Source: Pseudomonas kermanshahensis (GTDB lineage: Bacteria > Pseudomonadota > Gammaproteobacteria > Pseudomonadales > Pseudomonadaceae). From it: 64,000 nt of DNA. The notes under the pieces were generated by a model. The model was given only the letters and a program-made list of their open reading frames with translations, was not told the origin of the DNA and searched no databases. A program made the translations under genes and the position numbers. How positions within the stretch are numbered: the stretch's first letter is position 1; every line of letters begins with the position of its first letter. The stretch covers positions 5,132,001-5,196,000 of the forward strand of contig NZ_JABWRY020000001.1 in assembly GCF_014269205.2 (NCBI RefSeq), given 5' to 3'. This document shows positions 12,597 through 36,047 of the stretch, one piece after another.

Positions 12597-13004
12597 ATGA
12601 AACGCCACCTGCTGACCCTGACCCTGTCCCTGCTTGCTGCCAACGCTTTTGCCCTGCCGGCCGCTGAACAGCACCTGACCGCCGAATCGCGTTCCAGCAC
12701 CGCAGAAATCGCCCAGCCGCTGAAAACCGTTGCCGAAGGCGGTTCGGATCGCTTGATCGAACGCACTGGCCGCGTAGCCGAAGGCGGCTCCGACCGCTTG
12801 ATTGAACGCACTGGCCGTGTAGCCGAAGGTGGCTCCGATCGCCTGATCGAACGCACTGGCCGGGTTGCCGAAGGTGGCTCCGATCGCCTGATCGAGCGTG
12901 CTGGCCAAGTCGCCGAAGGCGGTGCCGACCGTTTGATCGAACGCGCTGGCCGTGTAGCTGAAGGTGGCTCGGATCGCCTGGTTGAACTCAGCCGTGTGAG
13001 CTGA
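12597..13004 (+). CDS. Exported protein made of six 15-residue tandem repeats
   Basis: A 135-residue protein. Residues 1-19 are a Sec signal peptide (ends ANAFA), about 25 residues follow, then six consecutive repeats from residue 45 to 134 with the unit VAEGGSDRLIERTGR. The first three copies are identical in protein; later ones vary (TGR to AGQ or AGR, S to A), and the last is degenerate (LVELSRV). The ribosome binding site is GAGGAGCACC. I recognise no enzyme motif. Very similar low-complexity proteins in Pseudomonas have been given the name 'phage infection protein', which I treat as unproven. It has its own terminator. Confidence 0.8.
   Translation: MKRHLLTLTLSLLAANAFALPAAEQHLTAESRSSTAEIAQPLKTVAEGGSDRLIERTGRVAEGGSDRLIERTGRVAEGGSDRLIERTGRVAEGGSDRLIERAGQVAEGGADRLIERAGRVAEGGSDRLVELSRVS
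12729..12998 (+). repeat. 45-bp tandem repeat, six units, inside a coding sequence
   Basis: Six in-frame 45-base units each beginning at a Val codon of the GT-GCCGAAGG kind (12729, 12774, 12819, 12864, 12909, 12954). Copies differ mainly at third codon positions, showing selection on the protein while the DNA drifts. Confidence 0.9.
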
Positions 13005-15365: not shown

Positions 15366-16133
15366 TCAGCCCTTGACCGACCGATCGATCGAGAACCCTG
15401 CCCAGTCCTGGCTCACTGGCATCAGCTCCAGGCTGTTGATGTTGATGTGCGCCGGCTGGTTGAGAATCCAGAAGATGGTCTCGGCAATATCCTGCGGCTG
15501 GATCGGCTCGGCACCTGCGTAGGTGGCGTCGTACTTGGCCTGGTCGCCACCGAAACGCACCAGCGAGAACTCGCTCTCGCACAGCCCCGGCTCGATGTTA
15601 CTGACGCGCACGCCCGTGCCGCGCAGGTCGCAACGCAGGCTCAGCGAGAACTGCCCGACGAACGCCTTGGTGCCGCCATACACGTTGCTGCCCGGGTAGG
15701 GGTAATTGCCCGCCACCGAGCCGACGTTGAGGATCGACGCGCCACGCCCGTGGGCGATCAACCGAGGCAGCAGCAGGCGCGTGGTGTACATCATGCCCTT
15801 GATGTTGGTGTCGACCATGGTTTCCCAGTCGTCCAGGCTGCAGTTCTGCGCCGCATCCACGCCCAGGGCCAGGCCGGCGTTGTTGACCAGGCCACGCAGT
15901 TTATCGAACCCAGGCGGCAGGTTGCCGATGGCCGCCTCCATGGCTTTGCGGTCGCGTACATCGAGCACCAGCCCGTGCACCTCGGTCTGGGCTGACAGTT
16001 CTGCGCACAGCGCATCCAGGCGCTCCTTGCGGCGACCGGTGAGGATCAGCTTCCAGCCGGCCTGTGCAAAACGTCGGGCGGTGGCCTCGCCGAAACCGGA
16101 AGTCGCGCCAGTGATGAATACGGTGGACGTCAT
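15366..16133 (-). CDS. ydfG: SDR oxidoreductase, YdfG type (3-hydroxy acid dehydrogenase)
   Basis: A 255-residue classical short-chain dehydrogenase. TGATSGFG is at 8-15, the NADP-preferring GRRKERL at 33-39, NNAG at 84-87, Ser139, and Tyr152-x-x-x-Lys156. The overall pattern (GLVLDVRDRKAMEAAIGNLP, NIEPGLCESEFSLVRF) matches YdfG, an NADP-dependent enzyme acting on L-allo-threonine, serine and 3-hydroxypropionate-type acids. The ATG at 16133 starts the Rossmann strand; 30 further in-frame codons upstream are non-conserved. A DnaA-box-like 9-mer lies 15 bases upstream. Confidence 0.88.
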   Translation of the reverse strand: MTSTVFITGATSGFGEATARRFAQAGWKLILTGRRKERLDALCAELSAQTEVHGLVLDVRDRKAMEAAIGNLPPGFDKLRGLVNNAGLALGVDAAQNCSLDDWETMVDTNIKGMMYTTRLLLPRLIAHGRGASILNVGSVAGNYPYPGSNVYGGTKAFVGQFSLSLRCDLRGTGVRVSNIEPGLCESEFSLVRFGGDQAKYDATYAGAEPIQPQDIAETIFWILNQPAHININSLELMPVSQDWAGFSIDRSVKG

Positions 16134-16737
16134 GCTGTGTTCCTCGCTGTGGATTATTTTCGGCAGGGTTTGCAGCATGCCTTCGTACCACGCAGGCAGC
16201 AAGCCATTGAAGCCATTGGTCAAAAAATGATCACACCTACCAAAGCCGCGTAGCAGAGGGCTTCGCGCCAGCTATGCGCACGTTATCCACAAGGCTTTCC
16301 CCACGGATTGGGGGCAACTTATCGTGCTCGCGGAACCCTTTCAGCGATCCACGGTCGGTGGATATCTCTGAGGTGATGGCGCAAGGCTTTCAACCATGCC
16401 GCTTGCAGCGGTCTGTCCAAGGTTTTTGCACAGACTTACCCACAGGTTTTACGAGGCATCGGACGCAGCAGCCTGTGAGTAAAAAACCGTGAAAAATCAT
16501 CCACAAGGGCAAAGCGAACAAAAAATGATCAACGCCCTACAAGGCATGAAAACAAAGGGCTGTAGCGAGGTGCACCCATGTTTTCCACAGGCGGTTCCAC
16601 ATTATCCGTGGGTAAAACAAGGCTGTGGAAACAATGGCTTGCGAAGGGTTTTTGGAGAGGCTAAAGAAGGCTGTGCGACAAGTTGTCCACATTCGGCTTG
16701 AAGCACTGAGGCCGCTGTGCGGCCCCAGTGTGACCAC
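16134..16737. other. Gene-free stretch with a cluster of DnaA-box-like 9-mers
   Basis: No believable gene. Matches to TTWTNCACA with at most one mismatch: plus strand 16283 TTATCCACA (perfect), 16424 TTTTGCACA and 16581 TTTTCCACA (fit), 16436 TTACCCACA, 16497 TCATCCACA, 16683 TTGTCCACA (one off); minus strand 16156-16148 TAATCCACA, 16482-16474 TTACTCACA, 16632-16624 GTTTCCACA (one off). A 13-base direct repeat CAAAAAATGATCA occurs at 16221 and 16519. The cluster lies between the ydfG start and the liv operon end. Binding is inferred from sequence only. Confidence 0.6.
16704..16730 (-). terminator. Candidate end-of-operon hairpin after livF
   Basis: CACTG-a-GGCCGC-tgt-GCGGCC-c-CAGTG folds as a long stem just beyond the livF stop. 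There is no T-run after it, so it may be a weak terminator or a 3'-end stabiliser. Confidence 0.45.
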
Positions 16738-17454
16738 TCAGTGCCCGCCCAAATAGGCGCTGCGCACTTCCTCGTTCACCAACAACTCCTGGCCGGTGCC
16801 CGTCATGCGGATCTGCCCATTGACCATCACATACGCCCGGTCCGACAACTTCAGCGCATGGTTGGCATTCTGCTCAACCAGGAAGATGGTCATCCCAGTC
16901 TTGGCCAACTCACGCAAGGTGGCGAAGATCTGCTTGACCACAATCGGCGCCAGCCCCAGCGATGGCTCATCGAGCAGCAACAGCTTCGGCCGGCTCATCA
17001 GCGCGCGGGCAATGGCGAGCATCTGCTGCTCGCCCCCCGACATGGTCATGGCCCGCTGGGTGCGCCGCTCCTTCAACCGCGGGAACAGCTCGTACATCCG
17101 CTCCATGTCCTCCTTGGCGTATTTGTCGCCAATCGGGATGGTGCCCATCATCAGGTTTTCCTCGACGGTCATGTCGGGGAACACCCGCCGCCCCTCAGGT
17201 GACTGCGCAATACCGTTGGAAGCGATGTAATGCGACGACTTGCGGGTGATGTCTGTGCCCCGGTAAACGATGTGCCCCGAAGACGCGCGCGGCTGGCCGA
17301 AAATCGACATCAGCAAGGTCGATTTGCCGGCACCGTTGGCACCGATTAGGCTCACCGTCTCGCCTTCGTTGATGTGCATCGACACCTTCTTCAGGGCCTG
17401 GATCGGCCCGTAGAACACATCCAGCTCCTTCAGCTCGAGAATGGGTGCACTCAT
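16738..17454 (-). CDS. livF: Branched-chain amino acid ABC transporter ATPase LivF
   Basis: A 238-residue ATPase. Walker A GANGAGKS is at 38-45, the Q-loop segment GIAQSPEGRRVF follows, then the signature MSGGEQQ, Walker B LLLLDEPSLGL and the LivF-type LVEQNANHALK. It is the last gene of livKHMGF; its start overlaps the livG stop by four bases (ATGA), implying translational coupling. With LivG it drives uptake of leucine, isoleucine and valine through LivHM. Confidence 0.95.
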   Translation of the reverse strand: MSAPILELKELDVFYGPIQALKKVSMHINEGETVSLIGANGAGKSTLLMSIFGQPRASSGHIVYRGTDITRKSSHYIASNGIAQSPEGRRVFPDMTVEENLMMGTIPIGDKYAKEDMERMYELFPRLKERRTQRAMTMSGGEQQMLAIARALMSRPKLLLLDEPSLGLAPIVVKQIFATLRELAKTGMTIFLVEQNANHALKLSDRAYVMVNGQIRMTGTGQELLVNEEVRSAYLGGH

Positions 17455-35785: not shown

Positions 35786-35872
35786 GCCCAGGTGGCGGAA
35801 TTGGTAGACGCGCTGGTTTCAGGTATCAGTGACTTAACGGTCGTGGAAGTTCGAGTCTTCTCCTGGGCACCA
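35786..35872 (+). tRNA. tRNA-Leu(CAG), first copy
   Basis: 87 bases including encoded CCA. Acceptor stem GCCCAGG/CCTGGGC, D-arm with GGTAGA, anticodon stem CTGGT/ATCAG around loop TTCAGGT (anticodon CAG, reads CUG), long class II variable arm, and T-loop TTCGAGT. CUG is the major leucine codon in this genome. Confidence 0.97.
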
Positions 35873-35960: not shown

Positions 35961-36047
35961 GCCCAGGTGGCGGAATTGGTAGACGCGCTGGTTTCAGGTA
36001 TCAGTGACTTAACGGTCGTGGAAGTTCGAGTCTTCTCCTGGGCACCA
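35961..36047 (+). tRNA. tRNA-Leu(CAG), second identical copy
   Basis: Base-for-base identical to the first copy over 87 positions, 88 bases downstream and in the same transcript, followed by a terminator. Confidence 0.97.

Follow-up and report, generated by a model that had tools for sequence, protein, structure and literature searches.

Paired DnaA-box modules of putative DARS type in an intergenic gap of Pseudomonas kermanshahensis and their distribution across the genus

Results

Organization of the intergenic gap

The window analysed here, a stretch of 64,000 nucleotides from the genome of Pseudomonas kermanshahensis, contains a gene-free gap of 604 bases (16134–16737) between an SDR gene (15366–16133, minus strand) and a livF-like gene (16738–17454, minus strand), in agreement with the region of about 600 bp without genes reported in a preliminary description of this DNA. 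That description had further claimed nine DnaA-box-like sites in the gap, three of them exact, and a chance expectation far below this number. The cluster and the three exact copies of TTWTNCACA (16283, 16424 and 16581) could be reproduced, the total could not: allowing at most one mismatch, we counted 12 sites between 16148 and 16691, two of which overlap (16474 and 16476). When the gap was shuffled with its dinucleotides kept, 1.28 ± 1.11 sites were obtained with a maximum of 5, and 0 of 1000 shuffles reached 12, which bears out the low chance expectation. Elsewhere in the 64 kb, the densest 545-base window contains 2 sites at this threshold, and the exact pattern occurs 245 times in the genome of 6.15 Mb, compared to 83 occurrences of the reversed pattern. 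Outside the gap, an open reading frame of 135 aa (12597–13004, plus strand) begins with a signal-like sequence and contains tandem repeats, each about 15 residues long (VAEGGSDRLIERTGR).

Two modules of the same build are located in the gap on the plus strand, module A (16217–16320) and module C (16516–16616), each comprising a Fis-like 15-mer, a 50-bp linker with a weak dyad and a core of three boxes. In both cores, which start at 16283 and 16581, the boxes are arranged as > 3 nt > 5 nt < (9-3-9-5-9, with the last box reversed) and are referred to as III, II and I in this order. Box III matches TTWTNCACA exactly both in module A (TTATCCACA, 16283–16291, plus strand) and in module C (TTTTCCACA, 16581–16589, plus strand) and is the strongest box of the modules. 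Boxes II and I of module A are poor, with two mismatches in CTTTCCCCA (16295–16303, plus strand) and three in the reversed TTGCCCCCA (16309–16317, minus strand), and those of module C carry two mismatches each (GGTTCCACA, 16593–16601, plus strand; TTACCCACG, reversed, 16607–16615, minus strand). The Fis-like 15-mers, GGTCAAAAAATGATC in module A (16218–16232) and GAACAAAAAATGATC in module C (16516–16530), both lie 65 bp upstream of box III and fit the consensus GNNYANNNNNTRNNC. The arms of the dyad are found at 16239–16247 and 16259–16267 in module A (AAAGCC ... GGCTT; columns 24–32 and 44–52 of alignment A1) and, in the same alignment columns, at 16537–16545 and 16557–16565 in module C (CTACA ... 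TGTAG).

Similarity to these modules was scored with R1, a sequence-only profile built from 39 modules of other genomes. Of 89 modules collected, with twelve loci skipped as duplicates or unrelated, four elements from the genome under study and one misfit were removed, and the remaining 84 were reduced to 39 by an 80% identity filter. Within the window, R1 scores module C with 74.6 bits (E 3.1e-22) and module A with 74.4 bits (E 3.7e-22). Two weaker relatives accompany them: a degenerate half-module (16380–16449, plus strand; 9.7 bits, E 0.058) that has neither a 15-mer nor a clear box I and retains two boxes 3 nt apart (TTTTGCACA, exact, 16424–16432; TTACCCACA, one mismatch, 16436–16444), and a weak diverged module in opposite orientation (16135–16233, minus strand; 13.6 bits, E 0.0035, with a 10-nt insert) that shares the 15-mer of module A and contains the box TAATCCACA (16148–16156). 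A further box, TTGTCCACA (16683–16691, plus strand, one mismatch), lies outside the modules. In eight close relatives this extra box is 100% conserved, core A 98% and core C 89%, compared to 62% for the remaining gap.

The three-box core and its Fis-like companion

Searching the whole genome for the three-box pattern with at most three mismatches yielded seven matches, two of them in the window, and reversed controls yielded none. Among 324 possible arrangements, > 3 > 5 < is the commonest in the genus loci that we fetched, with 113 cores against a median of 2 for the others. A second arrangement, > 2 > 3 > (94 cores), was not retained as a separate one; we read it as these very cores preceded, at 2 nt, by an additional weak box (16272 and 16570 in the window). 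In 83 of 112 cores from the fetched loci, the best 15-mer lies exactly at −65 relative to the first box, and in 15 of the remaining 29 it falls between +92 and +103, the position at which the following module starts. Since these loci were fetched for their resemblance to the window, the core, 15-mer and arrangement counts are not independent. In the genome under study, the 15-mer at −65 is present in both window modules as well as in the modules of the second, the third (C1:249 kb) and the C4 loci. One locus, L065 (2396–2430; G000:C1:957895–957929), has three strong boxes in DARS spacing, lacks the 15-mer at −65 and reaches an R1 E-value of only 0.04.

The consensus GNNYANNNNNTRNNC is quoted for Fis in PMC4585315, and the E. 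coli consensus has served to assess Fis sites of P. putida in PMC5612765. In the gap it fits only the two module 15-mers; across the whole window it fits 1.14 times per kb, and because the consensus is that loose, the fixed distance to the core is the stronger argument for a Fis-like site. All five Fis rules are obeyed by 36 of the 39 modules and by 75 of 174140 background positions, the former count being partly selected, as modules were required to have a Fis-like score of at least 10 at −65. Letter by letter, the two 15-mers are no better kept than the gap in the eight relatives (62% and 76% vs 62%), owing to frequent replacement of the A-tract by a T-tract; the Fis-type pattern as such persists.

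Between the 15-mer and the core, the dyad shows 64% paired cells in the 39 modules vs 27–46% when its position is slid. The paired columns do not covary (the observed values are equalled or exceeded in 121 to 323 of 500 shuffles), and we therefore read the dyad as a probable symmetric protein site. A hairpin or RNA element was considered and rejected: besides the missing covariation, the modules yield no predicted pairs with RNAalifold, and Rfam at gathering thresholds reports only two tRNAs in the window. These are two tRNA-Leu(cag) genes (35786–35872 and 35961–36047, plus strand), 88 bases apart and with equal Rfam scores. Searching for IHF sites between 15-mer and core with WATCAANNNNTTR gave none at up to one mismatch and two at two mismatches (16527 and 16550), with a scan that also missed the IHF sites published for DARS2 of E. 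coli.

Distribution in Pseudomonas and beyond

The window modules are the two best matches of R1 in their own genome, with module C first and module A second (E 3.0e-20 and 3.6e-20). At E<1e-3 there are 12 matches at seven places, the weakest of which is partial. The preliminary description had named many equal clusters in a genome scan as an outcome that would speak against its proposal; repeated places do exist, all of them belonging to one module family rather than to unrelated clusters. In the sampled Pseudomonas genomes, R1 finds the module in 398 of 398 at E<=0.01, a set that includes the genomes which supplied the training modules. At E<=0.001 it is reported in 119 of 194 genomes of the order and in 86 of 185 of the class, where the reversed profile reports 0 of 185. 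A search of the phylum, intended as a negative control, was not clean: 67 of 249 genomes are matched, 34 of them listed under other classes and some over the full length, so that the reversed profile is the control on which we rely. Either the element predates the class, or the E-values are optimistic in those genomes. Three genomes from another genus of the family (G490, G518 and G565) have 18 R1 matches each at E<=0.001 (20 candidates scored), compared to 12 in the genome under study.

In a direct comparison of the gap and its edges with 99 genomes of the genus, some match was obtained in 77. In the named genomes, a module lies within 3 kb of livF in 27 of the 29 loci whose LivF is of Pseudomonas type (at least 85% identity) and in 0 of 51 other LivF loci. 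The two Pseudomonas-type loci without a module belong to Pseudomonas sp. MWU13-2105 and P. caspiana. Together with the 398 genomes and the conservation of both cores in the eight relatives, this is what would be expected from the conserved boxes that the preliminary description had asked of related species.

Such a neighbourhood raises the question of whether DnaA, possibly with Fis, controls transcription of the flanking genes. The gap does lie upstream of the SDR gene; the module, however, is found on the downstream side of livF in those 27 named loci and adjoins unrelated genes elsewhere (HDAC-like/flavoprotein and SDR/IMPACT family), and we therefore regard transcriptional control as very improbable. 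One of these other places was recognized through positions 16516–16601 of the window, which also match a second locus in the same genome, likewise in many relatives, namely an intergenic stretch flanked by a histone-deacetylase-like gene and a TIGR03862 flavoprotein gene. This second locus was tried as a paralogue of oriC and rejected, given its HDAC-like/flavoprotein setting and the placement of dnaA on another contig. At a locus adjoining the HDAC-like gene in another genome (L049, G061:C1:5986032–5986536), four modules follow each other in tandem about 134 bp apart.

Chromosomal position

Positions relative to dnaA were obtained from 20 chosen single-contig genomes, 18 of the genus and two of the family. 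Among the matches listed, 150 modules (of 181) form 88 loci, of which 87 fall within the origin-proximal 40% of the replichore; these 88 loci are not independent of one another because the genomes are related. The loci occur on both arms at a median of 21% of the replichore from dnaA, again among the matches listed. A single locus (G003:C1:4191127–4191217) is far from dnaA, at 85% of the replichore. The locus of the window type, adjoining livF, lies 0.55–0.74 Mb from dnaA in ten single-contig genomes and dnaA of P. kermanshahensis is on another contig, in keeping with the earlier remark that no origin gene is near.

The region beside dnaA contains 10 box sites in 600 bp, a number similar to that of the gap, from which a secondary or backup replication origin might be proposed. 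R1 gives no significant match to this region in the search of the genome (E 0.82), the G+C content of the gap is 53% and no initiator gene adjoins it, and a backup origin is thus barely plausible to us.

Comparison with regulatory DnaA-box clusters of E. coli and B. subtilis

According to a review (PMC5742627), DARS cores share equal spacing and a box I that is reversed relative to boxes II and III. The DARS1 and DARS2 regions of MG1655 display exactly the layout III> 3 nt II> 5 nt <I that is found in modules A and C, and the window modules thus have three boxes at the spacing common to both E. coli sites, with box I opposed to II and III. They are likewise located between genes and between oriC and terminus, as described for DARS, given the gene-free gap and the distance from dnaA in the ten relatives. 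The DARS sites of E. coli favour ADP-DnaA and promote the release of its ADP.

When 113 kb of E. coli sequence including oriC, datA, DARS1 and DARS2 were searched with R1, DARS1 was the sole report (17.6 bits, E 3.4e-4, model positions 11–105). With filters off, a search of 13.4 kb of E. coli aligned DARS1 without gaps over model positions 12–105 (E 4e-5). This weak match spans, in the same register, the flank beside box III, which is required for full ADP release as stated in PMC4585315, citing Fujimitsu 2009. E. coli DARS1, situated between bioD and uvrB, resembles the modules in its three boxes with 3-nt and 5-nt gaps and a reversed box I, in an ungapped match over core and flank, and in a GCAAGC...GCTTGC in the dyad columns. 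It differs in that it is present as one copy, whereas the Pseudomonas modules are tandem and occur at several loci, in that its strongest box is II rather than III, and in that no Fis consensus is found at −65.

With DARS2, near mutH, the modules share the core spacing and a Fis consensus on the side of box III, both being candidate sites, which lies at −125 in DARS2 and at −65 in both window modules, so 60 bp nearer to the core in Pseudomonas. DARS2 needs Fis and IHF (PMC4245941) and carries its IHF sites in the interval from core to Fis site. Its similarity to R1 is weak and limited to the core, with 10.2 bits in the 13.4 kb search with filters off and no report under default filters in the 113 kb search. 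We therefore do not file the module as DARS1, because the Fis-like site, the tandem copies and the number of loci differ, nor as DARS2, because the Fis distance differs and the R1 match is limited to the core. Judged from its core architecture, the module probably belongs with the DARS elements, as a type distinct from both.

E. coli datA is also a cluster of DnaA boxes outside the origin and, as described in PMC10380432, is located near oriC, at an origin distance comparable to that of the cluster studied here. An IHF-like site with one mismatch at 16629 could likewise suit a datA-like element, which would exert negative control by IHF-assisted hydrolysis of ATP on DnaA; in datA itself, a single IHF site lies among boxes that are essential. 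The stretch of E. coli that holds datA was, however, not matched by R1 in the 113 kb search, and both order and spacing of the boxes are those of DARS, which renders a datA-like element improbable. In B. subtilis, several DnaA-box clusters outside oriC are described in PMC13220808; this likeness is one of description.

Discussion

The cluster in the gap between the SDR and livF-like genes resolves into a pair of modules with a fixed order, spacing and orientation of boxes, which are conserved throughout the sampled genus, present in several copies per genome and placed in the origin-proximal part of the chromosome. We propose that they are DARS-type, i.e. DnaA-reactivating, modules with Fis as a likely accessory factor, a reading to which we assign a probability of about 60%. 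The preliminary description had left open whether the locus serves titration or reactivation of DnaA. Of these two, reactivation is favoured by the DARS layout of the cores, the Fis-consensus site on the side of box III and the fact that the profile reports DARS1, but neither datA nor oriC, in 113 kb of E. coli. Several points weigh against reactivation: within these 113 kb the match to DARS1 is weak and DARS2 is not reported with default filters, module A has poor copies of boxes I and II, the strongest box is III where DARS1 has II, the letters of the 15-mer are not conserved above the level of the gap, and DARS1 has no Fis consensus at the matching place.

The main rival is passive titration, in which origin-proximal sinks would sequester DnaA and so postpone re-initiation until it has been newly made in sufficient amount, comparable to the density of boxes near the origin of E. 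coli. The presence of several loci per genome, 12 R1 matches at seven places, and the origin-proximal position of 87 of the 88 loci among the matches listed suggest that the modules would suit this role as well, titration is supported for E. coli in PMC12371093, and the clusters outside oriC of B. subtilis (PMC13220808) point in the same direction. Titration does not, however, call for a constant 3/5 spacing with one of the boxes reversed, or for a 15-mer held at a set distance; both have nevertheless been kept, and we consider titration rather unlikely as the principal function.

By analogy with E. coli, the modules taken as DARS elements would act as follows. ADP-DnaA would bind the three boxes, and the head-to-head placement of box I with boxes II and III would bring the DnaA molecules on boxes I and II into contact and lead to release of ADP, as in E. 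coli. The resulting apo-DnaA would be reloaded with ATP, whereby the initiation potential would rise. Fis would occupy the 15-mer, located 50 bp upstream from the core, introduce a bend and couple the activity to growth phase, as at DARS2. About five strong loci, often with tandem modules, would contribute on both arms, and because they sit in the first third of the replichores, the dosage of modules would rise soon after initiation.

More tentatively, it seems possible that the module represents an old gammaproteobacterial element for recharging of DnaA, of which DARS1 would be a trimmed single copy and which Pseudomonas would maintain as an array of about five loci; the dyad CTGCAAGCC...GGCTTGCAG, in register with the flank of DARS1, may then mark the site of a third factor. 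If the array reading holds true, recharging capacity would double soon after initiation, unlike that of the mid-arm DARS sites of E. coli.

Conservation of DARS-like sequences in many species of proteobacteria is stated in PMC10380432, with a citation that is probably to Fujimitsu 2009. In PMC8682772, DARS2 is compared among species close to E. coli, Vibrio and Shewanella among them, with no mention of Pseudomonas in the text. Among the best-ranked literature matches, no title or abstract opening names a DARS or datA of Pseudomonas, and an earlier mention for this genus is possible. Detailed work on DARS sites comes from E. coli, with comparisons that extend to its close relatives; the Pseudomonas module makes recharging of DnaA testable in a second model genus, and its fixed architecture across 398 Pseudomonas genomes allows comparison across the class. 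The module furthermore suggests a role for the required and so far unexplained flank of E. coli DARS1 and provides a concrete target for studies of replication timing in P. putida.
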